In this document: piece by piece, positions 5,669-64,000 of the stretch
How the letters are laid out: each line of letters opens with the position of its first letter
Position numbering within the stretch: the stretch's first letter is position 1
Assembly: GCA_001247695.2 (NCBI GenBank)
Contig: LGRX02035299.1
Span: 1 to 64,000 of the forward strand
DNA length: 64,000 bases
Source of the DNA: Cymbomonas tetramitiformis
Taxonomy: Eukaryota; Chlorophyta; Pyramimonadophyceae; Pyramimonadales; Pyramimonadaceae
Direction: 5' to 3'
The notes under the pieces: generated by a model
What the model was told of the DNA's origin: nothing
What the model saw: the letters and a program-made list of their open reading frames with translations, nothing else
The model's database searches: none
Translations under genes and position numbers: made by a program

Positions 5669-5720
5669 CTTGCGTGCTTGCTGTGGGTTTCCAATTTCTT
5701 TTATGATTATCACGTGCGTA

Positions 5721-21661: not shown

Positions 21662-23366
21662 ATGGTAGCACTGAGCGGCGTGTCACTCGTGGCTTTCAGG
21701 TGGAAGGAGGAGCAAGGGGTTGGTACCGAGGCTGACTTACTTGACATTGTCCCTCTGCTGAAGACGGATGCAGATGAACCATACTCTGAGCCCCAACCAT
21801 TGGATAAGGATCTTGCCCATGACTCCCTCACTGCAAGAGCCCTCGAGGAGGGCGATGCTGCGGACAAAGATGTCGAGAAGAGCCTTGAACTTTACTTTTT
21901 TTTCGTGTTGCTAGGCCTCGGCTCGGTGCTTCCGTCGTTCGTGTTAGCCTCTGCTGTGGATTATTTCACCACAGTAATTGACAGGAAATCTATCAACTTC
22001 GAAATTAACGTAGCATACAATGGATCTCTATTCTTGACCACCGTCTTCAGCCTGTTTTACCTGCCACGTGGGGCTTTCGTTCCACGGTGCATCTCAGGTG
22101 AGTGCGGTCTTCAGCATCCCTTGGCCTGCACGTTCTGCACATTGAGACCATACAATCCCATACAGTCAGCTCGAACAATATTTCTCCCTTTATTCTCGGC
22201 CAAGCATCTTTGCATGTGATCTCTCGCCCGTGGATGCTGGTATACGATTGTCCTTGTATCGTATTTGCAATTTTCTCAGAGCGTGTGTCCCGATGATGCA
22301 AGTGGCTGCATTCTCCTATTGGCAGCACTACTAGGGTGTGATAGGGTGTGTCTTATTTGGGCACTTGTACACGAGTTGAATTTCCCGGCTGTGTTTCTGG
22401 TGATTCTCACACGCAGGCTTCGCTGTGATGGCATTTTGCTTCGTTGCGATCCCCGCCCTTGAATGGCTACGTGCTTATGGAGGAAGCGATACGCTGGTTT
22501 GGAATCTGCTGATGGGAAACATCGTTATTTTGGGAGCTGCTGACTCGTTCGCTCAAACGCCACTGTTTGCCCTCACCGGTTCGGCCTTTCCGCCAAGTTG
22601 CACCAGGGCTCTTATGGCCGGTGTGGCGCTGTGTGGAACGACGATGACTGCCGCCCGAATATGTACAAAATCCACAACTTCGGATGTCCAGTACTCGAGT
22701 TACGCATTCTTTACGTTGTCGAGCTTGATTTGCTTCGCCTGTGGCACGGGTGTATATTATGGCTCGCAGAGCCACCCGATGTTCAAACGGGGCCTCCAGC
22801 TGGCTAACAGGCTTGCAGAGCAGCAAAATGCTGAGCTGGACGCTGCGGCCACGAGAGCGCAGGTGTTCCAGGTACTACAACTCCGAGCTGTGCAAGTGAC
22901 TTCCTCGATGTTGGTGGTGGTGCAAGCCCAAGAGTTTCTTGTCATACCCTCCGTCATCGCACTTGCACACGACTTTATTGGCAATGGGTGGTATGTTATT
23001 TACGCAATTTTATCCTTCAACTTGGGTGATCTGACTGGGCGAGGGCTTCTTGCTTCGTATTGGCCCTGTCCAATTCGTTATGTTTGCAGTGGCATTCTCC
23101 TGCGCGTTGGTCTTTTAGTGGCAATCTGCCTGTGCATCCCTCCTCATGGCCCATTGGCACACCTGGCTTGGCCATTTATGATATTTACCTGTCTATTAGG
23201 AATCACGACAGGATACCTGGCCACTTCTGTTATATCTATTGCACCGACACTTGTTGAAGCCAAGGATCGTGAGCTCACAGCGCACATTTCGATCCTATCA
23301 ATATTTCTTGGTTTGGTTACTGGCAGTGCATTGAGCTTCGTCATCAAGGGTCTTTTGGGTCACTGA
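21662..23366 (+). CDS. Equilibrative nucleoside transporter (ENT/SLC29 family)
   Basis: There are two exons, 21662-22097 and 22417-23366. The donor CAG|GTGAGT and acceptor CGCAG|GC join phase 1 to phase 1 to give a 461-residue protein, the usual size for the family. After an acidic N-terminal tail comes TM1 (YFFFVLLGLGSVLPSFVLAS), the typical ENT opening. The middle carries the Gly-rich helices (GNIVILGAADSFAQTPLF). A hydrophilic loop (RLAEQQNAELDAAATRAQVF) precedes the C-terminal helices. The last two end in the ENT-like DRELTAH and GLVTGSALSF. ENTs move nucleosides or bases down gradients across the plasma or vacuolar membrane; substrate is not deducible. The first in-frame codon after an AG at 21640 is GTG, so an upstream exon is possible. 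I chose the ATG at 21662. Confidence 0.9.
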
Positions 23367-39283: not shown

Positions 39284-39600
39284 CTAGTGGTACACTATGT
39301 AGAGTGTATAGTGTATCAGTTCCACTATATAGTGAAATTATTGGTACACTATGTAGAGTGTATAGTGTATCAGTTCCACTATATAGTGAAATTGGTACAC
39401 TATATAGTGGAACTGGTACACTCTATAGTGTACCAATTTAACTGGCACACTATATAACGTCACTACAGTGTACCAATTTCAATATATAGTGGAACTGGTA
39501 CACTATATAGTGGAATTGACCACTATATAGTGTACCAGTTCCACTATATAGTGGAACTGCTACACTATATAGTGTACCAATTTCACTACATAGTGGAACT
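39284..39600. repeat. Array of CACTATATAGTG palindromes
   Basis: CACTATATAGTG (a perfect 12-bp palindrome) and variants such as CACTATGTAGAGTG are repeated about a dozen times, separated by GGTAC/GGAAC and AATT spacers. One 62-bp unit is directly duplicated (about 39284-39400). Single copies occur near 39867 and 40003. The array could fold into multiple hairpins. Confidence 0.85.
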
Positions 39601-40120
39601 ACTACATTCTTGTCTATTACCCTTTGCTAAATTGGCTCATTCGCTTAAAGAGCTGCTAGGGGCTTCCTCGAAGGTCCTTTGAAAATTTGGGGACCCATGT
39701 TGTCAAGTTCTCGAGCTGTTCTTTCTGCAGTGTCTTGTCAAATTTTTGATCCGAGGTCATCTTGACCCTCTAAATATCGGATTAAAGTAGCCTGGTATCA
39801 GTCAATTTGATATACTGCTTGAGTAACAAACCATCGAGAATCCCACCCTCCCGATGTAATGGAAATGGTACACTATATAGCGGAACTATAATTTTGCGAG
39901 CGGTCGTTAAAAAATTAAGTGACATACAGTACATTATTGGCAAGATCCCGATAACCCGATGACATCCTCGTGTTAGGCACGCCACTATATGAAAAATCTC
40001 GTGCCACTATATAGTGTACCAGTCCCACTAGGTTTTAGACAAAAATCACCCGGTTATATCATGTCACCCCGCCACAAGGACGCTATCCCAAGGAACCTTC
40101 CACTACGACACCTCCGGAAT

Positions 40121-45412: not shown

Positions 45413-47362
45413 TTAGTGATCCGTGCCGTCTTCCAGCTCTTTGATCACAGCGTTCATTTTTTCCTTGGAAACCCAGAAATCTTGGTTTTTGCGGTACGGT
45501 TTATTGAACACCTTCAAAAAGAGCCTAGAAATCCTCTCCACGGAGCCCCGGAAGCCTGCACAGCCATCCCCGACCACCTTGCACACACAACTTTGGACAA
45601 CGCCATGCTTGTACGAGGTGCGCTCGCGCAGATTTCCCGAAAGTAGCGTCCGACGAGGTAGCGACAACATCTGAATCATGCATCCGAGTGATCCAGCACT
45701 GCGCCCCACACCCAGGTACCGCAGTTTGACTGCGCAAGTGGTTTGCTGGCACTGGCGCAGTGGTTGGAGCTGGGCGAAGGGAGGTTGGCAAACCTTGAGC
45801 TGCCCATTCAGTGTCCTTCAGCTCTCGCAGCATTACTTGGCTGGGCGGGCTCCATGGACCAACTCCGCGGTCGGTGTTCGCCCTTACCCGTATGTGCAGC
45901 TCCGTTTCCTACACACCGGAGCCGCTTCCCCATCCCCGTTCATATGGCCTACACTGGCCACACGGGTTGCTGGATGACTGCAAGGCCGCTCCACACTCCT
46001 CTGCGACAGGCCTGCGCCCCTGTGGCAGGCCCCTTGGTGCAGCGCCCGGGAGATGCGCATGCATGCAGTAGCCGTGCGGGCCGGACTGCGGGCATGGGTG
46101 AACGGAGACCGCGGCGAGAGAGGCTGCGGCGAGGCCATGCTAGGCGGAGGTCTGAGGTGGGACAAGGATAGAGTGGAGTCACCTGATAAAGCTCGCGAAG
46201 GCTCGTCTTGGTGATGAGAAACACCTCCTCCATCCCTTCCTCCTGCAGTGAACACACGCACAGCTCAGTAGCCACACAGGATCCTGCAGATACCGCATAC
46301 CCAGTCCGAGGCCCGGGTGGGACATCTGCACATGCTATGCGCTCTGGTGGAGGCCTGGGGAGCGAGGAGAGTGGCCGGGCGCCTCAACCTGCAGGAGGCG
46401 AATCCTCGGTGGATCATCAAGCAGGGCACGCAGGTCCACCGAGTTGGTGTACTGCCCATAGTTGAAGTCCACATCGAAGCCATGCACCTGTGCTGCGCCC
46501 TCAGGACGGCCCGTTAGAGCGGCCCTCGGAGGCTTGGGGACTGCCCCCGAGCACATTAGCGGGATGCGACGATCAGAAGCGGAGCGGAAGGCACAGGGGG
46601 AGGAGTGAGGCGATGATGGGGATGAATTGGGACAGGGGAAAGGGGGGGCAGGAGGAGGAGGAGGAGGAGGAGGAGGACCTGAGTTCCATGCAACGCTGCT
46701 GGGAAGTGCCAGCACACTCTCACCGCGGTGCCTCCCTCCAGCTCCACCTTATGCACAGACTTGAGGGATACCTCTATGTCTACGGGGGCCTGCCCACGAC
46801 CAAACCCCTCCCTTTCATTGCTCACATCTCATTGCTCATATTTCATGCAGAGTTGCCGCATCATCTGATGCCCGCTGCCGCCCCTTCCTCCGCCCACCTC
46901 CGCTCGCCTCCTGTCCGCCTGCAGTCTCGACATGTGCAGCCGGGAGCAGCCGGAAGGGATTCCAGGCATATCGGTCGCCCCACAGTGATGAATCCACTTC
47001 TCACACCCAATCACAGGCTCTGAAATTCTCACGCCCAATCACAGGCTCTGAAGCGTCGTCCCCCCGATTACCACGTTCGAGGCTCCCCCCTGATTGCAGG
47101 GTCGCAAGCTTGCCCCGGTCACAGGCACCTCGGAGGCACCAGGAGGGCCCCCCCCTGCAGGGCGCCCAGCCCCCCTAAGAAGGTGCGCGTAGTGGCAAGC
47201 AGTCACCTCAGAGAAGAGCTGCCGGCGCGCGAGCCTGACTTCGGCCGGGGCTGACACGGTCCTGGACAGCCGCCGCCCGGCCATCTTCGCCCTCTCGCCC
47301 GCGCCCGGCAACACCTCCGCAGCGGCGTGCGCAGCAGCCTGCGCGGCCTGTTGCCCCCGCGT
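45413..47362 (-). CDS. Probable 3' exons downstream of the HSP70 region, function unknown
   Basis: Several short protein-like minus-strand blocks end at donor-like sites. They are AHAAAEVLPGAGERAKMAGR (to ~47213), PVDIEVSLKSVHKVELEGGT (~46790-46685), DFNYGQYTNSVDLRALLDD (~46511-46397), EEGMEEVFLITKTSLRELYQ (~46245-46185), LRELKDTEWAAQ (~45830-45795) and RKNQDFWVSKEKMNAVIKEL with the final stop at 45413. They follow the HSP70 exons in order and strand, so I infer one transcript, but phases were not all resolved. The first block could be part of an HSP70 lid. The rest is not recognised. A separate small gene is possible. Confidence 0.4.
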
Positions 47363-47466: not shown

Positions 47467-50400
47467 CTGCTGGCCGGCGACGGTGGCGCGCCGGAACCAC
47501 CGCGAGTCGATCTGCTCCGCGCCAGAGATCACGTCCAGCTCCAGCACGCCGTTCTCGTCCAGTTTCCACAGCAGGCGCAACCGCGCCTTACTCCGCCCGC
47601 CCCCGCTACCTGACTCCGCCACCCTCCACGTCCACATATCCCAGGGACGTGTTGGAGTCCACGTTGCCGGAGAGCCCCTCGAACACCTGGAGCCGGACCG
47701 CAGCAGCAGCGGACGCCGCGCCTCCTGCGACGGGCGCAGCCGAAGCGGCACCCATGGAGCTGCTGTCGCGCCGCGCCGCCGTCTGCTCCCCCTGAACGGG
47801 GGATGACTGGGACCCCTGGTTGGGGGGCGATGGAAGTGTGCCCAGTTCGACCTCCATCTCCGCCTGCGCCTCCCCATCCGCCAGGCTGTCAGTGCACCGT
47901 CATCATCTCCGCTGAAACTCGCACCCCGTCCACCGCCGCGTCCCCGCATGATTGGCGGCGCTGGGCGGCGCCTGAGCGTCCTCGAGCGCCTCCGCGCAGC
48001 CGCCCTCTAACAGCTTGACGAGCCGGGGCCGCGGCGACGAGCCCTCCCTGTGCGAGGAGAAGACCTGCACGCACGCGGTCAGGGGTCTGCCGCGGGTCTT
48101 CATGCGGCCCTCAGGGATGTAGGCTTTTGGCGCCTCTTCCCGAGGTCTGTGGGCGCCTCCGAGGAAGCTTCCGGGGCTTGCCGCATGCTGCCTGCAGCCT
48201 TCAGGCGCCACAAGCGCAGGCGCGCGCGGCACGGGCAAGGGACGCACCGTCGCCGGGATAGCGGTGAAGCGCGGGAACACGTGGCGGAAGCCCACGGAGG
48301 TGCTGGGGAAGTGCGTGGTGTGGAAGCCTGGATGCTCCCCATGGGTCAGCACCGCCAGCCCGACGTCCTGAGGGATGACATCCACGAGCTCTATCTGCGG
48401 CACGCAGTCCGTCTGGCGCTTGGTGTAGCTATCGTTGAGCATTGCCCCGAGGATCGCCGCTCCGCGCGCCACCGCCTCATCTGCGGCCGCCCGCCACTCC
48501 GAGCTTCAGGCGAGGCGCAGGTGGCCAAGCCCGTGTCACGTTGCGCCGGGAGCTCAAAGCCTACATTCCTCCATTCTATGCAGCCAAGACGAAGGCGGTG
48601 AGATGACTCTCAGTTGTGTACCATCCAAGGCAGCTTCCTGCTGCGGCGTGCCTCGCGTGCGTATGCAACAACTCCTCAGTCGCGGACACGGCACAGCTTG
48701 AGGTTTCCTGACGGAGAGCTCAAGCTTCGCGCAAGTGCGCTGCTGGGGTTCGGACAAGTCAGCGCGACAGAGCGGACAAGGCACAATAAGCCGCCGCGAG
48801 ACACATCAATATATGTCATCATGCTGAGAGCGTCGAGCATGTTTGTTGGAAACTCATTTGCAGTTGACTTGAGACTGTGTCATGCGTGCGGTGCGCCACG
48901 TGGGATGACAACTGCCCGCACCGGCATCTAAGGTTTCAAGAGGAGGTGCCCCGAACACAGCGGCCAGGTCCTGCTTAATGCGAGGCATCTGGGAGCTTCC
49001 ACCTGGGAACCGCGCATGCCCCCCTTGCGCCTCACTTCGCATTTCCACCCACCTCCCTTCAGGGTCCGCCCCTTCCCTTCACCGCACCCAAAAGGCCCAC
49101 AAGGCGCCGCTCCGGCCAAAGCAGTGCTCCCCGCTCTACCGCTGCTCCCACGAATGTGGAGGCTAAGAGCAGGGGACAGCCGACAGAAGACGCTCGGAGG
49201 AGGGCGGGTGCCCACCGACGAGAAGGACAGCGTTCACATCGCTCGGCTCAAGGTGCGCTTCCTGCGCCGCCCTCGCCCCCCAGCCCGCGCGGCGTCTCAC
49301 AGACAAGCTCCCTGCGCGCTCCGAGCAGCGTCCGCTGCGACGGGCGCCACATTCCCATGCCTCCACCTCTGCTTGGAACCCTGCTTGGCCGCCCGCTCAG
49401 TGCACGCCTCGTGCGTGCCTGGCGCGCTGCCACCTGCGCGGGTCCTGGCAGCCGCCCTCGGCGCGTCTACCCTGGATATGCAAAGGAGCGCTAAGAGAGG
49501 AGCGGTCGCAGCAGACGGCGTGCGCGCCCAACAGGTGGACCGCACGATTCGAGAGCGGGTGACAGCGAATACCTGCAGGAGCTCCGCCACGAGCTTGACT
49601 GTTCGACGGAATAAATGCGCGCACTGAGTGGCCCCCCATCAACCCCCCACCCCAACCTGTCAACGCCCCCTGGAATCTGTTGCCTAGGAATGGACGGCGC
49701 GGCTGTGGACGGCGCGGCTGAGGAAGCGGGGACTCAGAAGGAAAGCAGCAGCAGCGGCCGTCACCATTTGCTCGAAGGCGTCGCGTGTCAGCTCGAAGCG
49801 CTCCTCCAGGTCCACGGGGTACACACTCACTGAAGTGTGCTCCTGCGCCTAGCCCCCCCAAACGCTCTCACGCAATGGGCACCCTCAACATTTGCCGGGC
49901 GGGTTGGGGATATGCCCCAAGAGGCTCACGCGCCCCCTCGACAATAGGTTAAAAGGGCTGACCCAAGCTTGTTGAGGCGGAGAGGTAAAAGGTCAACAGT
50001 GAAACAACGGATGGGACAGGATGACAAACGTATGGATCAGGAAAATCGTAATAACGCCCTACAGCCGCCGGCCCCTGAAAGATGCGGACCCAGCACCTGC
50101 TCGGAGAGGGCGTGCTTGGCCCTCTTGGCAGCCTCAAGAAGGTAGGGGGTGGCGTGCGGGGGCAAGCCCTCCTCGCCCCCCTTCCGCTCGGAGCACCACG
50201 CCAGCATCGCACTCAGCACCACCTGCGGGAGCTCCTCCCAAGCGCCGGGCGTCATCCACAGCACAGCGGGGAGTCACGCCAGCTGCTGACGAGAGACGCC
50301 CTCGTGCTGGCGCCGTCGCGTGCTTATGCTTGCCTAGCCTCGGGCTGGTCGTGGGGCAACCAAACCCTAATTAAAACCTAATCAAACCCTAATTAATCCC

Positions 50401-52163
50401 TCATAAAAGCTTTCACACAACCCTTGAGGTTGAACACTTCCTTGAGGCCGCAATCAGCACCTCTGCCTGAGAATGGTCCGCTAAACCCTTCAGAGCATCC
50501 CGGACGTTCGCCGGGGCCACGAGCACGGGCGGGCCGCGTGCCTCAAACGCACGGGCGGGTAGATCTTCTGAGCAGCATCGAGCACAACCGATCCAAATTC
50601 TGATTGGGCGCTTTCTTCCACCGCGGCACCCGCCATACACATCGACGGACTTTGCGAGATCGCGACTGCGGGGCGAAGGACAGGCCGGACGCGCCGCCTC
50701 ACCAAAGTCCTGCCCTTGCAGCTGATGGGGCAGGGGGGTGGCTTGGGCAGCCCGCCTGCGCAGGGCTCTGCCCGGTCAGATGAGGGGGTGGGGGATGTGT
50801 CTGACGGCCCACCTGATCGAAGTCCTGCCCACCCAGCTGCCCGTCTCCATTCACAGCTTTGACCTGTATTTCAGCTGGGCAACAAAAGGTGGACCGCTCG
50901 TCAGGGCCATGCTCTCCGCGGCCTCCGACCAGCGCCCCCAGCACAGGGGGGCCTAGGAAAGAACCTCTCCAAAAGCTGAGTGCCCCACATTGTGATCTGG
51001 GTCCTGGGACGTGGTCGCACTGGCTGGAGGCACCTCGGCAGCCAATCAGCGCGCTGTCACGCATCGCCCGTGGGGCCAAAGCGGAGGGCTGCGAAATGCG
51101 GTGGAGAAGCGGAGAAGCGCGCCGCAGCCGATAGCCTCCGCAGTGCACCGAGTGATCACGCGATCCAAGAATTATAACCGCTAAAATTCTAAGAATACTG
51201 AAAAAAAACTTTTCCCTCGCTCAAATTGACGAAAAACCGCTTTTTTTTCTCCTAAAGAAAGGAGAGCCGTTGCCTCACGTGCGTGCCAGGCGAGGGGCCG
51301 GGCCGGGCACCATGGTGCTGGTCCACGAACACGAGGGTGACATCAGTGGTGCCGCCGCCCATATCGAACACCACAAAGTAGCCGTGAGCAGCCAGCGCAG
51401 AGGAAGGAGCCGCACCGCTGTCCACTGCACAGTGCACCCATCGCCCCCCACCCCCACCCCCTCATCTGAGCTTCCAATCAATGGCGTCTCAATGACATCA
51501 ATCTCATCCCGAGGGTGGCACTGTTGATTGCTTCGGAAATATCGCACCGCGGACGCCTGCGATGTGCGGCATGCGGAAGGGCGTCATGGGAGCTGGTAGA
51601 GATGGGGCGGAGTGGGAAACGCGGCGCAGCGCCTTGCGAAGGGGCCGGGGAGATCCCAGGAGCAACCTGCCGGTGCCGGGAGAGCCCGGGAGCAACCTGC
51701 CGGTGCCTGGGAGAGCCCGGGAGCAACCTGCCGGTGCCTGGGAGGCCCGGAGAACCTGGACCTCCGATGCCGTGCCGGGAGAGCCTCCGTGCCAGGGAGA
51801 CTGGAGCAACCTGCCGGTGCCGGGAGAGCCGGGAGCAACCTGCCGGTGCCGGGAGAGCCCGAGCAACCTGCCGGTGCCAGGAGACCCTGGAGCAACCTGC
51901 CGGTGCCAGGAGAGCCCAGGAGCAACCTGCCGGTGCCAGTGAGGAGCCTGGGAGCAACCTGCCGTGCCGGAAGAGCCCTGGAGCAACCTGCCGGTGCCGG
52001 GAGAGCCCGGGAGCAACCTGCCGGTGCCGGGGAGAGCCCGGGAGCAACCTGCCGGTGCCGGGAGAGCCCGGGAGCAACCTGCCGGTGATTCGCGCGCGTC
52101 CCGCTGCTGGAGCACACCATACGCCAGCGCCGCAGCGGTGGGCTCGGTGACGAGCTGGATCAC
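47467..52163 (-). CDS. Downstream HSP70 exons of the fusion gene
   Basis: In order on minus: VIQLVTEPTAAALAYGVLQQ (52163-52079), YFVVFDMGGGTTDVTLVFVD (51424-51311) and VKAVNGDGQLGGQDFD (50874-50813). Next come LLEAAKRAKHALSEQ (donor 50097), DLEERFELTRDAFEQM (~49833-49735), LFRRTVKLVAELLQ (donor 49573) and LEPSDVNAVLLVG (donor 49216). Then GSSQMPRIKQDLAAVFG (49002-48922) and DEAVARGAAILGAMLN with VFPRFTAIPATV (48480-48248). Substrate-binding strands follow (VRLQVFEGLSGNVDSN and LLWKLDENGVLELDV). The ATPase signature loops are all present and the phases that could be checked agree. Near 47605 the last two blocks lie in different frames. Confidence 0.8.
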
Positions 52164-55100
52164 CTGCGCCTCCACCCGCGAACAGGCCTCTCATCCCGGG
52201 ACCTCCCCCCACTCCCATACCTTGATGGCATCCAACGGCTGAGCCCATACCTTGATGGCATCCAACGGCTGAGCTCACTGTTGAGACCAGGCAAGGCGGC
52301 GCGTTGCGATGGAAATGTTTCGTCCCCATGCATGGCATCGCACCCCCTTGCAAGATGGAAGGGAGGGGAGGGGGCGAGGCGGAACGAAGGGGAAGTGTCC
52401 AAAGAGAGGCTATTTCCGGAAGGGGGAAGGACACGGTGGGGGCAGCGTTGGACCCAGGGGGTGGGGACCCACCTGCAGGTTGGCCATCTGGGCGGCGTCG
52501 AGCGTGGCTTGGCGCTGCGCGTCGGTGAAATGCGCGGGCACGGCGATCACGGCGGACTGGGGCTCGTCGGCGGGCAGCCCGAGCTGCGATGAGGCGAGCT
52601 CTGTCGCGTGGTCCAGCACAAACGCGGCCGCCTCCTCCGCGGTGACCCGCTCGGAGCGGATGCTGATGACGCAGCGGTCATCCTCCGCCTCCAGCACCTT
52701 GAATGGCCACGCGGCGGCCATCGTGGCGTGTGCCTGGAAGGCCGAGTAGGGCAGCCCCATGATGCGCTTGGTGTCAAACAGCCCCCCCTGAGGGTCGTCA
52801 CGCATCAGCACCGCCGCCTCGTGCCCGACAGCCTCCACGCGCCCGTCACGGGAGATGTGCACCACGCTCGGGATGGTGCTCTCGTGGAACCGGCTCTGGA
52901 TCATGACGACGCGCTCGTGCAGCCCTGGGGCGGCGCGGTCAGCGTCATACACCGCTACGCAGGTGCGCGTCGTGCCCAGGTCGATGCCGAGGATATGCCG
53001 GCTGGCGCCTGCCTGTGAGGCACCGCCCACCTCCTCCCGGGGCGGTGTCCGCTCCCCAACCTCCCCGGAGTCGATCTCTCGCTGTCCCGCCGGCGCCTCC
53101 GCCGGCACGCCCGCGCCTGACGCAACGATTGGCTGTGACGAGTGCGGCGCCCCCTCCAGCGCGCCAGCGGCGGCGCTCATCTCTGCACGCAACTGCGCGA
53201 TCAGCGCTTCCGCCGCCGCGAGCGCCGCGTCCTTGCGCGCCACCTCATCATCCAGGACCTCACCGGATGGGTCGGCCGCGCCCGCTGCGGTCCGGGCGTC
53301 CGCGCGGGGAGCAGGAGCGATGGCCGCTTCTGCCACAGGAGCCGGGGCCTGCTGCGCCGCCTGCCCCCGGGCCAGTGACAACTCTTCCAGCAGCGCCCTC
53401 TCCCGGGCCGCCCCGGCCTCCTTCTCCGCCTCGAGGGCATGCACCGCGGCCTCCTTCTCCTTCTCAGCCTTCAGAGCCTTCTTGGCCGCCTCCTTCTCGG
53501 CCTCGAGGGCTCTGCCGGCAGCCTCCTTCTCCGCCTGCAGGGCCTGAGCGGCGCACTCCGCGCGGGTGCGCTCCGCCGCCTCGCGCCTCGCGGTCTGCCG
53601 GAGCTCGTCGCCCTGGCGGCAGATCTCGCCCTGCGCGCGTGCCAGCAGCGCCTCCATGCGCCCAGGGCGTCCCTTCGTCTTCTCCGCCGCCTCTAGCTCC
53701 GTCCCCAGCTCCGCCTGCCTCAGCTCCGCCTGCGCGAGCCCGCTCGCCAGCCCCGCCGCCTCGGCCCGCACCGTCTCCAGCTCACGCGCCTGCTCCGCCA
53801 GCTTCACGGCGGCCTCCGCCGCAGCGCTTTGGGCCCTCCACTCAGCCTCCTCAAGCTCTGCAGCCAGAACCTCTCGCCTCCCCGCAGCACCTGGCGCCTG
53901 TTGCCCGATCTGCTCTGGCGCCTCACTCGCCGCCTGGGAGCCTTCTGCGGGCAGCGGCTCGTCCGAGGGCGGGTCGCGGGTAGTTCCGATTTCCGCAGTG
54001 GGCGTGGTGGAGGGGGGAGGGGCGGGGTTGCGGAGATGGGCATTGGTCCCCGCCGCGGCCTGGCGCAGCTCGGTACCGAGCTCCGCCACCTGGCGCTCCG
54101 CGGCCGCCAGCTCCTCGCGCAGCTCTTCGACCTGCGCCTCCGCGCCCATCCACTCCATCTGCTGCTCCTGCAGACGCGCCTCGAGCTGCGCCGCGCGTAC
54201 CGCCACCGCGCTCTGCTCCGCGTGCATCGCGATCACCACCTGCGTCAACGCGCCCACCTGCGCCTCCTTGCCCGCCACCTGCTCCTCCAGTACCGCGCTT
54301 CGAGCCACGGCCTCCCTGACCTCCTTGCTGCTCGCCTCGGTGGACTCCCGGCCGCTGCCACCGCCGCTTCTCACCCTAGCCTTGGCGACCACCTTACCCT
54401 GCTGCAGCCGGGCTTTTCCGCGCCGCAGAGCCCGCTCCAGCTTCTCCTGCAGCCCCCTCGCCTCCTCCTGGGCCGCCTGCGCCTCCGCCTGCGCGGCCTC
54501 TGCTCGCGCCTCCGCCTCCGCGGCCCCTACCCGTGCCGCTGCGGCAACCGCCTCCCCCCGCTCCCTCGCCGCTAACGCCTCCTCCAGGGCAGGGGCCGCC
54601 GCTCGATCCGCCACCTCTGCCGCACGGGGTGTTGTTGCGCGCGACCTGGGACCCCTCGGGGACCCCGGCCGCTGCTCCAGGCGCGCTCTGCCGCGCCGCA
54701 GGGCGCGGTCCTGCGCGGCGCAGAGCCCCTCACTCACCTTCTTCAGGGCCGCCGCCTCCGCCTCCGCCTCCGCCGAGCGCTCGATGGCGCCCGCCACCTG
54801 AGCCTCGAGCTCGCCCGCTGCAGCCTCCCAGTCGGCGCACTCCTCGCGCGCCTCCGCCAGCTGCTGCGTCGCACTGCGGCTCTCCGAGCGCGCCTCCACC
54901 AGCACCATCTGCGCCACAGCCCCACACGCTTACCACTCCGCCCAGGACCGATGCACATGGAGCGGCGCGCGGTGGGCAGCCATGCGTGTTACTAGGCTAC
55001 CAACCTTCGGGCTACCAAGGCGCAAAGCGTCAACGGTAAACGGGTTCTCTGCCGCGTCATGCACGGCTATACGAGGCCCGCGCGCGCTCTACTCCCACCC

Positions 55101-58100
55101 AGCGTGATCCAGGGATCGGAAGTTGAGAGCTCGAGGCTGAAGGCACAATCCCTGGTCCTGACCCCTGGAGGGGATAGTTCCACATCTTTGCAGCATGCGG
55201 TCCCCTGCAGAAGATTAAGCGGCTAAGGAAGGGAGCGCATTGCTCGCATTGCTCAGCGCGGGGACCGTCGCACATTGATGAGATACGCCGGCGCGGTTCA
55301 CCTCAACTCTCAGTCAGCTTTTGCATTTCCTAATACAGCTTCGGGATTGGCTGCACATGCTGCTTGATGCAATCGGCAAACGTCGCGCCTCATCAACGCT
55401 GCAACAGCCCCTCGTCGGATCGATGCTCCGACTGTGCTCGCTTGTGGTCGCACCTGCAGCTCCTCCACCTCCAGGCGGTGTGCCTCCCGAATCTTTGCCA
55501 GTACCTCCTCCGCCCCCGCCATGTCCGCAACATCAAAAGCATCTGCAGGCGCGCTGCTCCCCACAGCGCCCGCCTCCCAGGGAGCTTCCCGGCCTGTGGC
55601 AGCCTCGGAGATGGAGGTGGCGACTGCGTCGTAAAACCGGGGCGTGCTCTGCTCGGAGGATGTCCCGAGGGCAGAGAGCTCGCGCTCGCGCACGAGGGCA
55701 ACTTCAAGGTCGTCCCGCCGCACGAGGTCTCCCGCCAGCTTGCCGTACGCCGCGTCTGCGTCTGCCTCCGCCTCCCGCACCCGAGCCTCCAGGTCGCGTG
55801 CCCGCCTCAACGCCGTCTCCAGGCTCGCTGCGGCCAGCGCTGCAGCCTGCTCCGCCGCTTTCTGCGCTTCCTCCGCCTCCTCCCGGCCGCGCTCCAGGCT
55901 CCGCTCGCGCCGCGCAGCTGCCGCCTCCTCCACCTGCCTGCGCCCCTCCCGCTCCTGAGCTGTCGCCACCTCCGCCTGCAGCTGCAGCGCCATCGAGGCC
56001 CGCGCTTCCTGCGCCTGCCGCACCGCCGCCGCAGCGTCTCCCATCTGCACCTCCGACACCTCCACGCAGCTGGCCAGTTCCTCAATCCGCCTCTGCGCCG
56101 CCTCCAGCTCGCGTCGCTGCGCCTCCACCTGCGCCTCTGCCTCCTGCACTGCCACCTGGGCGGCTGCGCCCGCGTCTGAGACATCAGGTGCGGCGGATGG
56201 CGAAGGCCGCTGCATTGGATTGAGGGTCGGCGCCCCGGCGGAGCTGGCTCCCGCGCTGCCCGCCAAGTCCTCGCGCAGCTTCTTGTTCCTGCACCTCGGA
56301 GCCCACCGCCCTCCGACACGCGGAGTCACTCCACAGAAGGCGCCCCTCTCCCTGCCCGCCCCTCTTGAAGGGGTCCATGGGAACCCCCCCTTCTGCTCCC
56401 CTCAGAGGGGCCGCTGTCTCACAGCACGCGGGCTTGCGGAGGCATACGAGTGCGGTTCGGCGCAACACCACAGACAAACAATCGGATCGACCAACAAACA
56501 CCGAACGGCAACCTGGGAGGATTCGTCAACGCTTCACTCGAGAGCGGGGCACTTCTTCACAACTTCTGGAGGTATCACCTGGTGGCTGTCTTCTGCAGCC
56601 GGCTCTTGGTCTTCTTCAATGCCTTCTCCGCCTCCAAGCTCTGCTGGTGCAGCGTCTCAGCACGCTCCGCAGCGGCCTGCTCCCCGTGCTCGGCCCGCGC
56701 CACCTCCTGCGCCCGCTCCTCCAGCTGCCCCCGCAGGTCCGCCTCCACCGCGCTCCTCTCGGCAGCTTCCTCCCCGGCGCTCGCTGCAGCCTCTGCGGCG
56801 TTCACCTCGGCCGCTTCGCGCGCCGCGGCCGCGGCCGCTGCCGCGGCCGTCTCCGCGTCCCACTCCACCCGCGCAGCCGCCAGCTCACTCCGCAGCTGCT
56901 CTGCGGCGGCCTCCGCGGTTGTCAGCCGCGCCTCCGCCGCCGCCGCTTCCAACCTGGCCGCCTCCTCCCTGCGCCGTAGCTCCTCCGCCACTTCCTGCGC
57001 TCGCGCCGCCTCCCCCGCCGCCGCCGCCTCCCGGCCAGCCAGCAGCTCCCCGAGCGCCACGCTCCGCCCCTCCGCCTCCTGCAGCGCCCGAGACCCCATG
57101 TTCCGCAGCGCCGCGTGTGCCGCCTCCAGACGCTCCACTTCGGCGTGGTGGTCCGCCTCCACCATCGTCAGCCGGGCGCAGGCCTGCACCGTCCGCCGCT
57201 CCCGCTCCGTCGCCGCCTCCTCCAGCGCTGCGGTCTGCGCCTGCGCCTCCGCCACCTTGGCGAGTAGCGCCTCGTGGGCACCCTCGGCGCAGCGCAGCTC
57301 CCCGTGCAGCGCCTCCGCCTGCACCCCGTGCTCCACCGCCGCAGCCTTCCACCGTTCTTCGGAGGTCGCCGCCGCCACCGCCTCCGCCTCGTGCGCTCCC
57401 ACCGCCACCTCCGCGGCTCCGAGCCGGCCCTCCAGGGAGGCCTGCCGGGCCTCCCAGCTGGCCGAGGCTCGCGCCATCTCCGCGCTCAAAGCCACCGCCG
57501 CCTCACTCTCCGCCAGATGCGCCGCCTCCACCGCCGAGTGCTCCCTCTGCAGCTCCCCCAGCTGCCCCCTGGAGGCCTGGACGCGCTGCGCCAGCCCTGC
57601 AGCCTGCTCTTGCACAGCAGCCAGCTCCGACGTCTGGAGCCCGGCAGCGCTCTCCGCTTCCACCAGCTGCAGCTGCAGCTCGTGTAGCGCAGCCTCGGCG
57701 CTTTGGGCATCGTGGGCCATCTCTGCCACGCGGGACTCGAGGGACCTCGCCACGTCCGAGTGCGAAGTCACCGATTGGCGTGCCGCCGCCGCTTCGTCCC
57801 GCAGCACGGCCTCCCGCGCCTCCGCCTCGCCGAGCAGCCGCCGCGCCTCCTCCGCCTGCGCGCCCCACTGACGAGCCTCCGCTGCGGCCACCTCGTGCGC
57901 TCCGGCCTCCCGCCCCAGCGCCTCCAGCTGCTGCAGCAGCGCGGCGTGCTGCGTCTCCGAGCTCTGCACGAGCGCTGCCATCTCCACCGCCCGCGCGCTC
58001 TCCGAGGCCAGCCCTGCCGCCTGCTCGATGACGGCGGCGCCCGCCTCCGCCACCTCGTGCCGCAGCGAGGCGTGCAGGGCCTCCCCGCTGAGCTCCAGCC

Positions 58101-61100
58101 TCGCGGCCCTGGCGGCCGCGGACTGCAGCGCCACCGCCTGCTCGGCCACCGCCTCCTTTGAGAACCGCAGCTCGTCCTGCAAGGTGGACTGCTGCGACTC
58201 CGCGGCGCGGAGAGCCGTCGCCGTGTCGGCCGCCTCGGATGTCAGGGAGGCCAGCTGCGAGGCCTGCGCGGCTGCATAGCTCCCCGATTGGTCCAGCTGC
58301 TGCTGCAGCGCCGCCTGCTGCGCCTCCGAGCTTCGCAGCAAGGACGACATGAGCGCCGCCATCTCAGCAGCATGCGCGTGCGCCGCCTTCAGCTCAGATG
58401 CTTTTGCAGTCATGGTCGCGCCCGCCTCCTCCCGCTCCTGCCACAGCGCCGCCTGCTCCGCCTCCGAGCCCCGCAGCAGCGCCGCCATCTCGGCCGCACT
58501 CGCGCTGGCCTCCTCCAGTTCAGACGCCTGCTCCACGCCGGCCTTGCCCGCCTTCTCCAGCTCCTGCCGCAGCGCCGCCCCCTCCGCCTCCGAGCCCCGC
58601 AGCAGCGCCGCCGTCTCGGCCGCCTTCCTATCTGCCGACTCCAGCTCGGACGCCTGCTCCATTACAATCTTGTCCGCCTCCGCCAGCTCCTGCCGCAGCG
58701 CCGCCTGCTCCGCCTCCGAGCCCTGCAGCAGTGCGGCCATCTGGGATGCTCGCTCAGCAGCCGCGGCCTCCACCGTGTTGACATGCACGACCGCGAGATG
58801 GTTGGCCTCTTCCAGCCGCTGCAGCGCCGCCTGCTCCGCCTCCATGCTTAACGCGTGCGCCGCCTCGGCAGCTTCCCTGTGCCCGGCCTCCAGCTCGCGC
58901 ATCTGCTCCGCTTCGATGCCGCCCGCCTCCTCCAGCCGCTGCATCGCCTCTTGCGCCTCCACACATCGCGCCTCCGCATCACGTGCACCCTGCGCCATCT
59001 CGACGGCCTGCCTTTCAGCTGACTCCAGCGCGGACCCTTGCTCCGCGGCAGCGTCACTCGCAGCCGCCAGCTGCTGCTGCAATCCCGCCCGCTCCATGGC
59101 CCAGCCCTGCGTCACCGCCGCCACCTCAGAGGCGCTTCCGGACTCCGCGGCTTCCATCTCCTCGAGCGCCCGCTGCAGCTCCCGGCACCGCCCCCCAAGT
59201 GCCTCACCGCGGCTCTCCATCTCTGCAACATGCTGCCGGGTCTCCGCCAGCTCAGCACGCTCCGCGCTCAGGGCCAGCTCGCTACTCGCCAGTGCCTCGC
59301 CCAGCGCCGCCTGCTCACTCTCTGCTCCTTCCCGCGCTGCCTCGTGCTCCCCACACGCCATCTCCAGCTCTCGGCCCACCTCCGCCTCATGCGCAAGGCT
59401 CACCGCCAGCTCCGAAGACTGCGCCGCCGCCTCCGCCTCCGCCATCTCTACCTGTGCCCGCAGGGCGTGCACTTCTTCCCTGTGCTGGGCCCCCAGATCG
59501 AGCACGCTCTCCACGCGCTCCTGCGCCGCCCTCGCCGCTGCCGCGCTCGCATCCAGTTCCACCCGGAGGCTTGCGAGCCCTCCAGCCGCGCTCCACGCTT
59601 CAGCCTCCGCCTCCACCAGCTCCGCCTCCAGCGCTGCGCCCCTCGCCTCGAAGCGGTCCTCCGTGGACGCCAGCTCAGCCCGCAACGCGGCCATCTCCGC
59701 ATCCAGCCGTCCATTCACGGCGCACATCTCCGTCAGGTGCTCTGTCGCGCTCCGGAGCTGCTCGAGGCCCGCCTGGGCCTCCGCCTCCGCCTCCGCGGCG
59801 AAGGCCTCACTCACGCCGAGCTCTGCGAGGGAGCTGTCGCCCGCTGCCTGCAGCCTCGCCGCCTCGATGCGCAGCGCGCCCCGAGCTTCCTCGTCCTGCG
59901 CCCTTCGCACGGCCGCCGCCTCCACCTGCGCCGCGTGCGCCGCACACTCCTCCTGCGCCGCCGCCAGCTCCACGCTGGTTCCCGCCAGGTGGCGCTCTGC
60001 CTGCTCCGCGAACGCCGTCACCTCCGACACCATGGCCTGGCTCGCCGCGAGCTCGGCGCTGCGCCGCCCGGCGGCGGCCTCCGCTGTCGCCAGCTTGGTG
60101 CCAAGGGCCACCTCCCGCAGCTCGGTGACGCTGACGATCCGCGCCAGCTCCGCTGCTCGCACCTGTCAGGACACATCGGTGCAGACGGGGTGTAGCGTAT
60201 CAGCCGGGCGGGAGCGCGGCGAGGGGAGACGGGGTGTAGCGTATCAGCCGGGCGGGAGCGCGGCGAGGGGAGACGGGGTGTGGCGTATCAGCCGGGCGGG
60301 AGCGCGGCGAGGGGAGACGGGGTGTAGCGGATCAGCCGGGCGGGAGCGAGAGAACAAACCCTAAACAGGCGCGACTCGTGATACCGACCCAGCCGCTGCT
60401 GTGCACATTGTCCTCTGCATCCTGGCTTGGAAAGGGCGCCAACTCTGAGAGAAACCAGCGCCAGGTGGCGGGCCCACAGCCACACAAGGGGTCCAGCAAG
60501 GCCTTCATTGCGTGCGAACTTCACCCCCAGTGCATGATTGTGAGGCATGTCTATGACACATGACTATGCCACATGACTATTACGCACCTGAATCACCTCC
60601 AGTTCCTCACGCTGCGCCTCCACTACGCCCTCCACGCTAGCCGCCCGCGCCGCGTTCAGCGCCACGTGGCTGCGCATGGCGTCCACCTCCTGCAGGCTCT
60701 CGCGCAGCTGCCGCTGAACCGCCACGTGGCCACGGCGCTCCTCTGCGGCCTGTGCCTCGAGCATCCCCTGCAGCTTCGCCGCCAGCTCCTCCTTCTCCGC
60801 ACCCAGTGTCACCCTCAGCTCCTCCTTGTCCCGTTCCTGCTCCCGCTCCTTCTGCTCGAGCGCAGCCTCGGCGTGTCGCATGCGCCCCTCCAGCTCCGCG
60901 ATGCGATGCTTCGCCGCCCGCGCCATCTCCTCGGACTCTGCGGCTTCCGCCTCGGATGCTGCCACACGGCGCTGTAGACGCATGGGAACAGGGGGGGTGC
61001 GGGGGAGGGGGGTGAATCCACACGCCACTGCATCCTGCGGAAACGGCTTGGCACACCTCACGGCAGACTATCTGCGCCCGCCAATGGCAATCTCCGACGG

Positions 61101-64000
61101 CGGAGCTCGCATCAAGGTCAAATAAAAAATCAAGTAAAAAATACAGCAGTCTACCCTCAGGGTATATTCCACGTGCTTGTGTGCGAGATGCTGCATGCAA
61201 GCACCCACTCACGACACCCCTGGTCCCTGCGCACCCCCCAGGAACAACCCAGTGTTTCTCGTCTTACCATCCCAGAGGATGATGCGTCTCAAGGGTATCT
61301 GTCCCCCCCCCTTCCCCCCTACAACGGAACCGGGGGATGTCGGGCACCTGCTTGATGCGCTCCATGTCCACCAGCGCGAGCTGCTGCACGTGCACCTGCC
61401 GCTCCATCTCCCGCAGCTTGGCTCGCCAGGTGTCGGGCGCGACCGGCTGCGAGGCATCCTGTGGCGCCGGCGGCTGCGCCCGGGTCCCCGGGGGATGCGT
61501 GGAGGACGTGCCGGCAGCGTCCCCCATCACCGCGGCAGCCACCGCTGCCGCCTCGGAGGCCTGGAGCAGCAGCTGCATTTCCGCACGCTGAATGCCCAGG
61601 GCCTGGCGCGCCCCTGCCAGTTGCTCCGACTGCGCCGCCTCCCGCCCCTGCGCGCTTGTCTCGGCCTTCGCCACCAGCTCCTGCGCAGAACTCGCTTCCC
61701 CCCCAAATTCTCCACGCAGCGCGCGCCTCAGCGGCAGACCCTCCTGACCCTCAATAACCCCTGCACAACGCGGACAACTTGGGCGGGGATGGAGCCTACT
61801 CAATCAACCCTCCACACTCTTTATGGCCGGCGCATCATCATCATCTTTGCGGCGGGCAGATCATCATCTCGCGGCCATCATCAACTTTACAGCTGCCGGA
61901 TCATCATCTCGCGGCCATCATCAACTTTACAGCTGCCGGATCATCATCTTGCGGCCATCATCCAACTTTGCAGCCGCGGATCATCATCTTGCGGCCATCA
62001 TTAACTTACAGCCGCGGATCATCATCTTGCTTGCGGCCATCATCAACTTTGCTGCCGCCTGATCATCATCTTGCGGCCATCATCAACTTTGCAGCCGCCG
62101 GATCATCAACTTGTGGCAATTTGCGGGGAGAACGGCGCGCTTTGCCGCACCTGTGCCACGGCCGCGTGCTCTGACGACTCCCGGGCAGCCTGCTTTGCGT
62201 CAGCCAGCTCCCCGCGCAGCTCGTCCCGCCCGGCCGTCAGCTCCTCGGTCGCGGCAGCAAGCTCCGCGGCATTCGCCTCCGACCACAGGTGCGCCGCTTG
62301 GGCGGTCTCGTACGCCGCCTGGGCCTCGGCGAGCTCCGCCTCTAGGGCGTCCCGCTCGATAGCCGCGCGGCCCACCACCGTCTCCCAGTCCAACGCGGCG
62401 ACGGCGGCAGCGTCCACCTCAGTCAGAACCGCCTCTTGCAAAGCTGCCGCCTCGCTCTGCAGTGCCTCCCGCGTCACCGCCGCCACCCGCAGCTGCTCCG
62501 CCATGTCGTCCGCCTCCACTGTGCGGCTCTCCAGCCTGGTCGCCAGCTTAGCACCCGCGTTGCCCGCCTCCTCCAGCTCCTGCCGCAGCGCCGCCTGCTT
62601 CGCCTCCGAGCCCCGCAGCAGCGCTGCCATCTCGGCGGCCTGAGCATCCACGGAGTCCAGCCTGGCCGCCTGCTGCGTGGCCGCCATGCCCGCCTCCTCC
62701 AGCTCCTGCCGCAGCGCCGCCTGCTCCGCCTCCGAGCCCCGCAGCAGCGCCGCCATCTCCACCGTCTGTGCGGTGGCAGCCTGCAGCTGGCGGGCCTGGA
62801 GCGCCACTGCGCTGCCCGTCTCCGCCAGCTGCTGCACGAGCGCCGCCTGCTTCGCCTCTGAGCTCCGCAGCACCTCCGCGACTTCACTTGTTTTGGCATC
62901 AGCGGCCTGAAGTTCAAGTCCACGTGCTCGTGCGCGATCCTCCGCCTCTCGCAGCTCCCCCTGCAGCGCGGCTCGTCGGGCCTCAGAGCCCTGCAACCGC
63001 TCCGCCATCTCTTCCGCCTTCCCGCGTGCCTTGCCCAGCTCCGAGGCCTGGTGCGCTGCAGCCGCGCCGGCCTCCGCCGCCTGCTGCCGCCGGGAGTGCT
63101 GCGCGGCTGCGCCGTCCTCCTCCGTGTCCCGCAAGCGACTGGCTAGCTCCGACAGTCTCGCCTCCGCCGCCTCCGCCTCCGATTGCTGCCTCGCAGCGAC
63201 GTCCTCAGTTTCGGACCACCGCTGCTGCAGCGCCGCCTTCTGCTCCAAGGCTTCAAGCAGCGCGGTATCCGCAGCTTGAGACCGTGCCGTCAGATCAACC
63301 ATCCTCGAGCCGGCAGTTTCCAACTCGCACAACCTGGATGCGGCGGTCGCATGCGCCTGCCGAAGCTGCAGCTGGAGGGCGTCCCTGTCCTCCTCAGCCT
63401 GCTGGACGAGCAGGGCCATGTCGCACACCTCACTGCCGATCACCTCCAAGCTGTCCGCATCCTTCGCCGCCTCCTCCTCCGCCTGTGCGAGGCGCTGCTG
63501 CAGCGTCACCAGCTGCTCGCCGGAGCCCGCGGCCCGTGCCTCAACCTCCGCTGCTGCACTTCTGGCCTCCTCCAGCTGAGCACCTAGTGCTGTGCACGCA
63601 CCCGTGGCTTCCTCCACTTGCCGTTGCAGCTCTGCCTGCTGCACCTCAGACTCTTGCACCACAGCCGCCACCTCGGCCGCGTCGGCATGAGCACGGCAAA
63701 GCTCCGCTTCCCGATCAGCCGCTGCTTCCCCTGCCTCCGCCAAATCCTGCTGCAGCGCCGCCTGCCGTGCGTCCGATTGTCGGAGCAGCTCTGCCATCTC
63801 GGCAATCGAGGAAGTCGCTGAGTCCAGCTCGAGCGCCTGCGTAGCAGCCGCTCCGCGGGCCTCCTCCAGCTCCCGCCGCAGCGCCGCCTGCTGCGCCTCC
63901 GAGCCCCGAACACGGGCCGCCAGCTGGCTTGCGTGTGCACTCGTGGAATCCAGCTCGGTAGTCCGCTCCGCGGCGACCCGCCTCGCCTCCGCCAGCTCCT
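47467..64000 (-). CDS. Giant coiled-coil/HSP70 fusion protein, 5' end beyond window
   Basis: On minus: 64000-62151 (partial), ~61790-61348, 60971-60588, 60162-56579, 56288-55454, 54908-52473, 52163-52079, 51424-51311 and 50874-50813. Further HSP70 blocks end at 50097, ~49735, 49573 and 49216. These are followed by 49002-48922, 48480-48248 and substrate-binding blocks to 47467. GT-AG borders and phases match across nearly all coiled-coil exons. They also match at 52473/52163, 52079/51424, 51311/50874, 49216/49002 and 48922/48480. About 3,000 residues of Ala/Glu/Arg/Gln-rich coiled coil precede an HSP70 that starts ILGIDLGTTRTCVAVYD, near plus 52,975. HSP70 is an ATP-driven chaperone; the coiled coil implies a filament- or scaffold-anchored version. 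No signal peptide can be judged because the start is outside. I know no described protein of this layout. Confidence 0.8.
51655..52090. repeat. ~27-bp minisatellite containing repeated splice-donor sequence
   Basis: On plus the unit is GAGCAACCTGCCGGTGCCGG plus GAGAGCCCGG-like sequence, repeated about fifteen times with small variants. On minus each unit carries CCGGCAG|GTTGCT, which is the donor used to end the 52163-52079 HSP70 exon. It fills most of the following intron. Confidence 0.9.
52473..54908 (-). CDS. Exon joining coiled coil to HSP70 nucleotide-binding domain
   Basis: The acceptor GGCGCAG|ATG and donor CTGCAG|GTGGGT are both phase 0, giving 812 residues. The first ~630 are coiled coil and linkers; the Ala-rich segment around KEAAVHALEAEKEAG is very regular. 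HSP70 begins at ILGIDLGTTRTCVAVYD and continues through STIPSVVHI, the FDTKRIMG lysine segment, VIAVPAHFTDAQRQA and DAAQMANLQ. Both parts lie in one uninterrupted open frame, so the fusion does not depend on a splice prediction. Confidence 0.9.
55454..56288 (-). CDS. Coiled-coil gene exon
   Basis: The acceptor GTGCAG|GAACAAG enters in phase 2 and the donor CTGCAG|GTGCGACC leaves in phase 0. After an Ala/Ser/Pro linker, about 150 residues of coiled coil follow. Then comes a Ser/Thr-rich non-helical part (TSSEQSTPRFYDAVATSISE) and a final short helix. Confidence 0.8.
56579..60162 (-). CDS. Longest coiled-coil exon (about 1,195 residues)
   Basis: The acceptor CTGACAG|GTGCGAGC is phase 0 and the donor ACCAG|GTGATACC is phase 2. 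Continuous heptads run throughout with almost no Pro or Gly breaks. A block of 42-residue repeats (MAALLRGSEAEQAALRQEL type) lies roughly in the middle third. Ala and Glu dominate. It resembles myosin-tail, golgin or centrosomal coiled coils in character, but composition alone cannot assign a family. Confidence 0.85.
60184..60355. repeat. 44-bp intronic minisatellite
   Basis: The unit GACGGGGTGTAGCGTATCAG plus GC-rich CCGGGCGGGAGCGCGGCGAG-like sequence repeats nearly four times, immediately upstream (on minus) of the acceptor of the longest coiled-coil exon. Confidence 0.85.
60588..60971 (-). CDS. Coiled-coil gene exon
   Basis: The acceptor CTACAG|CGC and donor ATTCAG|GTGCGT are both phase 0. 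The 128 residues form a highly charged helix (EQKEREQERDKEELRVTLGA), less Ala-rich than its neighbours. Confidence 0.8.
61348..61790 (-). CDS. Coiled-coil gene exon
   Basis: It codes for EGLPLRRALRGEFGGEASSA, a helical stretch, a Pro/Thr-rich hinge (THPPGTRAQPPAPQ) and the helix WRAKLREMERQVHVQQLALV. It ends at the donor CAAGCAG|GTGCCC (61348, phase 0). The acceptor is uncertain; a GGTCAG or TTGAG site just inside 61770 keeps phase with the previous exon. The hinge is the only clear break in the coiled coil. Confidence 0.65.
61859..62115. repeat. 40-bp intronic minisatellite
   Basis: The unit GATCATCATCTCGCGGCCAT plus about 20 bp (CATCAACTTTACAGCTGCCG type) repeats about six to seven times. 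It lies between the first two in-window exons of the coiled-coil gene. Confidence 0.85.
62151..64000 (-). CDS. Coiled-coil exon with 42-residue repeats (runs off the edge)
   Basis: It is open from the window edge to the donor GCACAG|GTGCGG at 62151, about 617 residues of uninterrupted heptad pattern. A 42-residue unit (six heptads; core EMAALLRGSEAEQAALRQEL) repeats with variation. The unit also recurs in the exon at 56579-60162, so the gene grew by internal duplication. Confidence 0.8.

Follow-up and report, generated by a model that had tools for sequence, protein, structure and literature searches.

Most Hsp70s reach their working places through partner proteins. Protists have giant, repetitive coiled-coil proteins of the cytoskeleton, such as those of the kinetoplastid flagellum and cortex, and we know of no chaperone domain in these. 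The locus described here lies on the minus strand of a 96,690-bp contig of the green alga Cymbomonas tetramitiformis (LGRX02035299.1, below C25115), of which positions 1-64000 form the window, i.e. the whole stretch of 64,000 nucleotides that was analysed. In this locus a predicted coiled coil is fused in frame to an Hsp70, a conclusion that, taken alone, we regard as close to certain. With the kinetoplastid giants the proposed coil would have in common its great length and its construction from repeats. An Hsp70 has also been reported in the ciliary central-pair C1b complex of Chlamydomonas, together with CPC1/SPEF2, and as perhaps loosely attached in Tetrahymena (PMC8175508). The parallel is that of an Hsp70 stationed on a cytoskeletal scaffold, but in C1b the Hsp70 is a separate subunit (PMC8175508), and nothing in the present analysis links the Cymbomonas gene to the axoneme.

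Coil and Hsp70 in one reading frame

The fusion is carried by a single exon. The frame at 52410-54929(-) is open for 839 codons; the exon within it, E6, occupies 54908-52473(-) (812 codons), is preceded by AG and ends at the donor CAG/GTGGGT. It encodes 637 Ala/Glu-rich residues of predicted coil and linker, to which are joined 175 residues from the beginning of an Hsp70 nucleotide-binding domain, which starts with HILGIDLGTTRTC from 52997, the junction reading HILGIDLGTTRTCVAVYDADR after the coil part. Pfam HSP70 (PF00012) covers residues 646-820 of the 839-codon frame (E 7.5e-28), and E6 alone finds DnaK in the PDB (phmmer, best match 1e-19). The first-pass annotation, made from the letters of the window, had placed about 630 coil residues and then an HSP70 in one frame at 52473-54908, and in this it was correct.

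An antisense frame of 690 codons is also open, and because long open frames are cheap at the 70% G+C content (GC) of the locus, the length of the E6 frame proves little by itself. More telling is the heptad (3.5-residue) hydrophobic periodicity of the coil part, with z = 4.0 against shuffles (on a coil row one base too long), vs. 0.2 for the antisense 690-residue frame and 0.0 for DnaK. AlphaFold2, given a seven-row alignment of E6, predicts six long helices within residues 2-584 at a mean predicted local distance difference test (pLDDT) score of 63. A structure prediction had been named as one check on the proposed coil, and the long helices agree with it. The end of E6 is joined to exon E7 (52163), in which the sequence continues with VIQLVTEPTAAALAYG, the same as in a second gene copy on another contig, C9925. 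Misassembly as the origin of the join was considered and is excluded by the presence of both parts in one exon and by the conservation of the linker in that copy.

A second copy in the same genome

The protein search with the Hsp70 part scored proteins of ~461-1,468 residues, Hsp70s in longer proteins being outside its reach. Among the best 120 of 6,178, the best match (76-77% identity) is P0001 (CYMTET_24304), a 754-residue protein of C. tetramitiformis itself. P0001 matches contig C9925 (23,844 bp) at 99.6% over 454 residues and is, judged by this match, a second gene copy in the same genome. A search of 851.7 Mb of the genome (25,745 contigs) with the Hsp70 exon gave 12 matches: C25115 and C9925 account for three (at least 76% identity), and the other nine show 41% identity or less. 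Neither a close copy nor a giant coil turned up in loci L017-L023, taken from five other contigs that match PF00012. The published assembly, which is not identical to the set searched here, comprises 914.3 Mb in 35,945 scaffolds, with tetraploidy inferred and genes predicted with BRAKER2 and transcript data (PMC10675990).

The C9925 copy contains the Hsp70 with the conserved linker and an in-frame extension of ~350 residues, which is considered homologous to the end of the window's coil because the alignment scores beat all unrelated coil controls. For the last ~100 residues before the Hsp70 the score between the copies is 142, where 150 unrelated coil pieces reach at most 51; for the part farther up it is 113, where 100 such pieces reach at most 88. 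The farther part fares less well against shuffles, of which 2/300 and 11/300 reached its score. The C9925 exon start aligns inside E6 (~residue 222) and is therefore uninformative on where E6 itself starts. The copies differ in that P0001 lacks a heptad signal over residues 1-410 (z 0.0), that its extension carries repeats of the QPVGAAVEERQ type (L011, 8192-9700), and that no upstream coil was found on its contig. AlphaFold2 (mean pLDDT 57) places some helices in the extension, the best at 293-357, and the 50 best PDB matches that Foldseek finds with this model are Hsp70 chains, mostly nucleotide-binding domains. The homologue check that the first-pass annotation had proposed thus returned a related extension beside a related Hsp70, but no giant coil upstream on that contig, and the full-length coil-Hsp70 layout has so far been seen once. 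C9925 also carries open frames that we read as resembling retroelement gag.

Comparison of the copies further shows that the Hsp70 part is under purifying selection, the ratio of nonsynonymous to synonymous substitution rates (dN/dS) being 0.156 (0.112-0.208; 321 codons). The ratio is 0.354 (0.154-0.681; 86 codons) for the last 110 residues before the Hsp70 and 0.506 (0.305-0.701; 260 codons) for the extension farther up. Unrelated coil controls, aligned in the same manner, have medians of 0.66 (5-95%: 0.25-1.00) in the first comparison and 0.59 (0.47-0.78) in the second, so that only the Hsp70 value is decisive; that of the farther part (0.42 in the control run) is suggestive.

The upstream coil

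Exons E1-E5 inside the window (Table 1) provide 2,349 model residues, and their splice phases match (0,0,0,2,0), in keeping with the earlier claim that upstream exons add more than 2,000 coil residues in phase. The gene was also said to run off the window, and coil-like frames do go on, on the same strand of C25115, to 94,173. The codon-position GC of the coil exons is 0.81-0.85/0.41-0.57/0.80-0.86 and becomes nearly flat in the gaps between them. In total, 21 minus-strand coil-like stretches from 94,173 to 53,310 span 10,295 residues, as measured from the first to the last passing 50-residue window; elsewhere on the contig there are one coil-like stretch of 60 residues (27 kb, minus) and no plus-strand stretch over 80 residues. 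One open frame beyond the window has 4,081 codons, with a coil-like span of 73,790-85,819. Repeats of ~135 residues, with up to 90% local identity, occupy model residues ~2000-4700 in the 12,066-nt stop-free exon 85888-73823, in which the string ADLQREAEHRQ occurs nine times.

A model of 37 exons was assembled from the Viterbi coil exons and the homology-based Hsp70 exons, two Viterbi exons (85888-75344 and 75268-73823) being merged because the frame between them is open. It encodes 10,928 residues with no stop, the Hsp70 starting at residue 10,472, and has a mass of 1.18 MDa; its 36 introns are GT-AG (which was imposed), with a median of 370 nt and phases of 27/5/4. Over the 10,471 coil residues the periodicity peaks, among 13 periods, at 3.5 (0.349, vs. 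0.149 +/- 0.008 and a maximum of 0.169 in 100 shuffles), and block by block the heptad z is at least 3.3 in 20 of 21 and 1.9 in the remaining one. Ten coil pieces without the Hsp70 matched nothing in Pfam over the cut-off (below it stand PUMA_CC, 0.0017, and DUF1664, 0.0088), two pieces had no PDB match at E 0.01, and among viral contigs seven pattern-matching stretches yielded no confirmed relative. By its nucleotide-binding domain the fusion is an Hsp70, and the coil pieces scanned match no described family over the cut-off. In seven comparisons of coil repeats the dN/dS interval lies below 1 in three, includes 1 in three and exceeds 1 in one (1.41, 1.16-1.75).

The coil as a whole has a second, unexplained hydrophobic peak at period 2.0 (0.285). 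The locus stands out as a high-GC island, GC rising at ~46 kb and falling at ~95 kb (0.60-0.76 over 46-95 kb; 0.50-0.59 over 40-46 kb and 95-96.7 kb). Three introns contain minisatellites, at 51648-52087, 61836-62108 and 60183-60348, with units of 30, 40 and 44 bp.

One gene or several

All of these exons could belong to one very large gene, read right to left over ~95.6-46 kb of C25115. A single-gene architecture for the whole coil-Hsp70 locus, with one transcript for all exons, seems to us evenly poised. An arrangement of two or more neighbouring genes is credible, though we favour it somewhat less than that: one or more giant coil genes would lie upstream of a separate Hsp70 gene, which would start in E6, E5 or E4, and the ~640-2,100-residue coil of that Hsp70 would be a rod for self-association or targeting, with the giant coil a mere neighbour.

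A small gene finder, with a codon table and splice matrices built from this locus, assigned everything from 95,623 to 46,183 to one gene under its default prior, to two under an intermediate prior and to nine under a split-cheap prior, keeping E4, E5 and E6 together under all three. The cost of breaking each of 28 junctions was computed under three priors with splice matrices retrained solely on Hsp70-part sites, eight donors and as many acceptors. In natural-logarithm units (nats), breaking costs 10.7/7.3/5.8 at E5/E6, 11.4/8.0/5.5 at E4/E5, 14.2/10.8/9.3 at E3/E4 and 4.7/1.3/0.0 at E2/E3; with the default prior, and leaving aside the first three junctions, no coil junction is cheaper to break than 69507/69132 (3.3 nats). 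Positive costs at E4/E5 and E5/E6 under every prior speak against a separate Hsp70 gene starting in either exon, as does the likeness of the 290- and 545-nt gaps to other introns, with flat codon-position GC and neither TGTAA nor AATAAA. The deposited model of the C9925 copy has three small exons ahead of the Hsp70 exon, so that this exon is not read there as a first exon. Support is good for the joins that lead from the Hsp70 up through ~2,100 coil residues, and that 2,100 or more residues of coil are joined to the Hsp70 is, in our estimate, likely.

Against one gene for the whole locus stand several observations. Many joins farther up are weak: under the split-cheap prior 11/28 junctions break at 0.3 nats or less. 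Eight of these are in the coil (after 88936, 87979, 87187, 73823, 72054, 70457, 69507 and 61348); the other three are the first three junctions, which none of the priors supports. The break costs themselves lean towards continuation because the coil exons of the window supplied the training set for the codon table. The gene finder missed E8 in all three runs and left its path unended in two. E4 ends at an in-frame TGA, which overlaps its donor and is avoided only by splicing there in phase 2 (56579 to 56288); the first codon of E6 is ATG, and E5 contains an in-frame ATG. Aligned to the upstream coil, E5 scores 172 forward vs. 152 reversed and E6 361 vs. 311, little better than reversed sequence, whereas E4 scores 1,120 vs. 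692; five of nine 100-residue pieces of E5/E6 score lower forward than reversed, and alignment found no specific repeats common to these two exons and the rest of the coil. Pro is more frequent in the last 971 residues before the Hsp70 than in most of the coil: the two final blocks contain 13 and 23, while ten of the 21 blocks have none, although two other coil blocks are also Pro-rich (15 and 22). Of the 7,993 length-limited candidates scored against E4, none reached E 1e-3 as a relative. Finally, the C9925 copy exists without the coil, no long coil having been found upstream of its Hsp70 on the 23,844-bp contig.

The Hsp70 part

Downstream of E6, exons E7-E11 were placed by tblastn of P0001, and the nine exons from 52163 to 48248 complete the nucleotide-binding domain without stops. 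The spliced Hsp70 part matches PF00012 with E 7.4e-79 over profile positions 1-398 of 599, the query ending soon after; the model is ~10 residues short between E11 and E13. The layout proposed in the first-pass annotation, an N-terminal coil and an HSP70, stands as an in-frame fusion, to which is added that the Hsp70 forms the C-terminal side and goes on downstream to 48248. Homology reaches that point by alignment, and the gene extends perhaps to about 47.5 kb. The E7-E8 intron holds a 30-bp minisatellite of ~15 copies at 51648..52087 (+) (Tandem Repeats Finder), and because its units contain the donor-like CGGCAGGTTGCT, this intron has many similar donor sites.

The residues point to a working ATPase. 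At 12/14 compared positions the window agrees with DnaK (row P0016), the catalytic ones included: the catalytic set (D8, T11, K70, R71, E171, D194, G196-G198, T199, D201 and G342 in DnaK numbering) is identical at 12/12. The two differing positions, 13 with R in place of N and 366 with D in place of N, also vary among the other Hsp70 rows compared. The Hsp70 is thus active-looking, with an ATPase site that appears intact by residue identity, and highly diverged. In a tree of 25 rows, in which the window row was flagged for unusual composition, the window and P0001 pair (100/100), and 1.94 + 0.61 changes per column lie between this pair and the remaining 23 rows. With canonical Hsp70/DnaK (PF00012) the window shares the complete nucleotide-binding domain and the catalytic residues, at 32-40% identity among the 120 matches listed, P0001 excepted; it differs in the ~640 to 10,470 coil residues in front, the long isolated branch, a probably diverged substrate-binding domain and a lid that was not found.

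Atypical Hsp70s are known in which the nucleotide-binding domain is kept and the substrate-binding domain is reduced. The Hsp70 part may likewise be an ATP-dependent structural or regulatory head that is a folding chaperone no longer, a reading compatible with either gene structure, which we consider a real possibility though not the favoured one. Consistent with it are the end of the Pfam match at profile position 398 of 599 (a point tempered by the end of the query soon after), the very long branch of the window/P0001 pair, and two insertions in the domain that are common to both copies. The beta substrate-binding domain is weakly recognisable, as two short Hsp70-like stretches in the correct order at 47692-47536, neither of them significant, and most of the first is left intronic by the Viterbi exons 47863-47687 and 47613-47467. 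A tblastn search of 44.5-48.3 kb, a region with uncertain exons, with the C-terminal parts of 12 Hsp70s found no helical lid, and Pfam found no match in the possible last exons at 46335-46748. Retention of every tested catalytic position argues the other way, as do the two beta-domain-like stretches and the sequence at the position of the interdomain linker, where ELVDVIPQ, with its linker-like ELVDV, stands opposite LLLDVTPL of Hsp70s. The exon model downstream of 48248 is itself uncertain, so the missing domains may be missed exons.

That the locus is decaying or untranscribed, or its coil frame an artefact of high GC, as the long antisense open frames and the mild constraint on the coil repeats (an interval below 1 in 3/7 comparisons and above 1 in one) would allow, is very improbable in view of the 4,081-codon open frame, the 12,066-nt exon without a stop, the heptad periodicity found in the proposed frame and absent from the antisense frame tested, and the dN/dS of 0.156 in the Hsp70.

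A proposed scaffold with a terminal chaperone

If the locus is one gene, its product would have ~10,900 residues or more, ~10,470 of them mostly coiled coil and then the C-terminal Hsp70. The coil would dimerise, which is a guess, into a very long rod or fibre; at 0.1485 nm per residue, a continuous rod could measure up to ~1.5 micrometres. Such a rod might serve as a cytoskeletal scaffold, its location in the cell, for which the first-pass annotation had suggested a filament, a basal body or a membrane tether, again being a guess. The C-terminal Hsp70 would bind and hydrolyse ATP and act on putative clients where the rod ends, perhaps in the loading, holding or remodelling of partners of the fibre itself. 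ATP-driven client binding would in this way be confined to one point of the scaffold. This scaffold-chaperone mechanism is offered tentatively, as a possibility that we think somewhat doubtful. That there is a single ~10,900-residue polypeptide with its own terminal Hsp70 ATPase, of a deep-branching lineage found, in the searches made, only in this genome, we rate a shade under an even chance.

To our knowledge, such a polypeptide of ~10,900 residues would rank among the longest coiled coils proposed. The first-pass annotation had held the layout to be undescribed, and indeed no description of a coiled coil fused to an Hsp70 was found in the open-licence PMC literature searched; on the protein side this holds within the ~461-1,468 residues to which the search was limited. 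A protein search spanning the junction found only ordinary Hsp70s among the best 120 of 2,578, the 754-residue P0001 exceeding its length limit.

Features of the locus and its surroundings

Table 1. Exons and other features of the coil-Hsp70 locus within the window, in the direction of transcription
Feature	Position	Strand	Evidence
Coil exon E1, 616 codons in window (on to 66761, 1,537 codons in total), 42-residue repeats	62151..64000	-	Open frame, heptad z 6.8; donor CAG/GTGCGG, phase 0; 126-bp tandem repeat
Coil exon E2, 132 codons	61348..61743	-	GT-AG, phase 0; weak periodicity, z 0.2; join to E3 weak
Coil exon E3, 128 codons	60588..60971	-	GT-AG, phase 0; z 1.8
Coil exon E4, 1,195 codons including split last codon, 42-residue repeats like E1	56579..60162	-	Open frame, heptad z 6.6; donor CAG/GTGATA, phase 2
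Coil exon E5, 278 codons	55454..56288	-	GT-AG; heptad z 2.5
Exon E6, first part: 637 residues of coil and linker (TPPREEVGGASQAGASR adjoining Hsp70)	52998..54908	-	Heptad z 4.0; predicted helices; last ~100 residues conserved in C9925 copy
Exon E6, second part: start of Hsp70 nucleotide-binding domain, HILGIDLGTTRTC to MANLQ	52473..52997	-	PF00012, E 7.5e-28; 76-77% identity to P0001/C9925
Hsp70 exon E7 (TEPTAAALAYG)	52079..52163	-	P0001 homology and splice signals; 3' end is one among many similar donors in minisatellite
Hsp70 exon E8 (FDMGGGTTD, phosphate 2 motif)	51311..51424	-	P0001 homology; skipped by gene finder
Hsp70 exon E9	50813..50874	-	tblastn, 95% identity to P0001
Hsp70 exon E10	50097..50222	-	P0001 homology
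Hsp70 exon E11	49765..49842	-	P0001 homology
Hsp70 exon E12, tentative	49573..49593	-	Frame and splice signals only
Hsp70 exon E13 (DVNAVLLVGG)	49216..49261	-	Weak tblastn to P0003, E 0.12, place correct; alignment
Hsp70 exon E14 (GSSQMPRI, adenosine motif)	48922..49002	-	Hsp70 alignment and matching phase
Hsp70 exon E15 (DEAVARGAAI, interdomain linker, start of substrate-binding domain)	48248..48480	-	Weak tblastn to P0002, E 0.057, place correct; alignment
Probable degenerate beta substrate-binding domain (LQVFEGLSGNVDSNTSLG ... ARLRLLWKLDENGVLEL), exon limits uncertain	47467..47863	-	Two Hsp70-like stretches, each below significance
Possible last exons, no gene end found	46183..47347	-	Viterbi only; path still open at end under 2/3 priors

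Several features lie elsewhere in the window. A retroelement with reverse transcriptase/RNase H, probably DIRS-like, occupies 10791-14779 (-) and has a frame that matches an ALOG domain and, below the cut-off, phage integrase (Pfam). What are apparently two copies of one repeat element lie at 8746-10086 and 17782-18998, and similar open frames occur in them on either strand; a fragment of a nucleoside transporter gene is found at 22404-23366 (+) (PF01733, E 3.5e-29), and a satellite-like array of TATATAGTG units at 39288-39606. A fibronectin-like exon at 45.8 kb was tried as a part of the coil-Hsp70 gene and rejected, Pfam giving it no support.

Implications

Even at its smallest, as an Hsp70 preceded within its own exon by 637 or more residues of coil and linker, the product would be an unusual chaperone of an isolated lineage. 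If the larger proposal is true, the element that places the chaperone would be in the same chain as the Hsp70 and of cellular length, and the alga would offer a natural example of chaperone action tied to one end of a fibre. C. tetramitiformis is among the few green algae that eat bacteria (PMC5741210), and because it does so, a giant scaffold specific to its lineage would be of interest for both the feeding and the flagellar apparatus.

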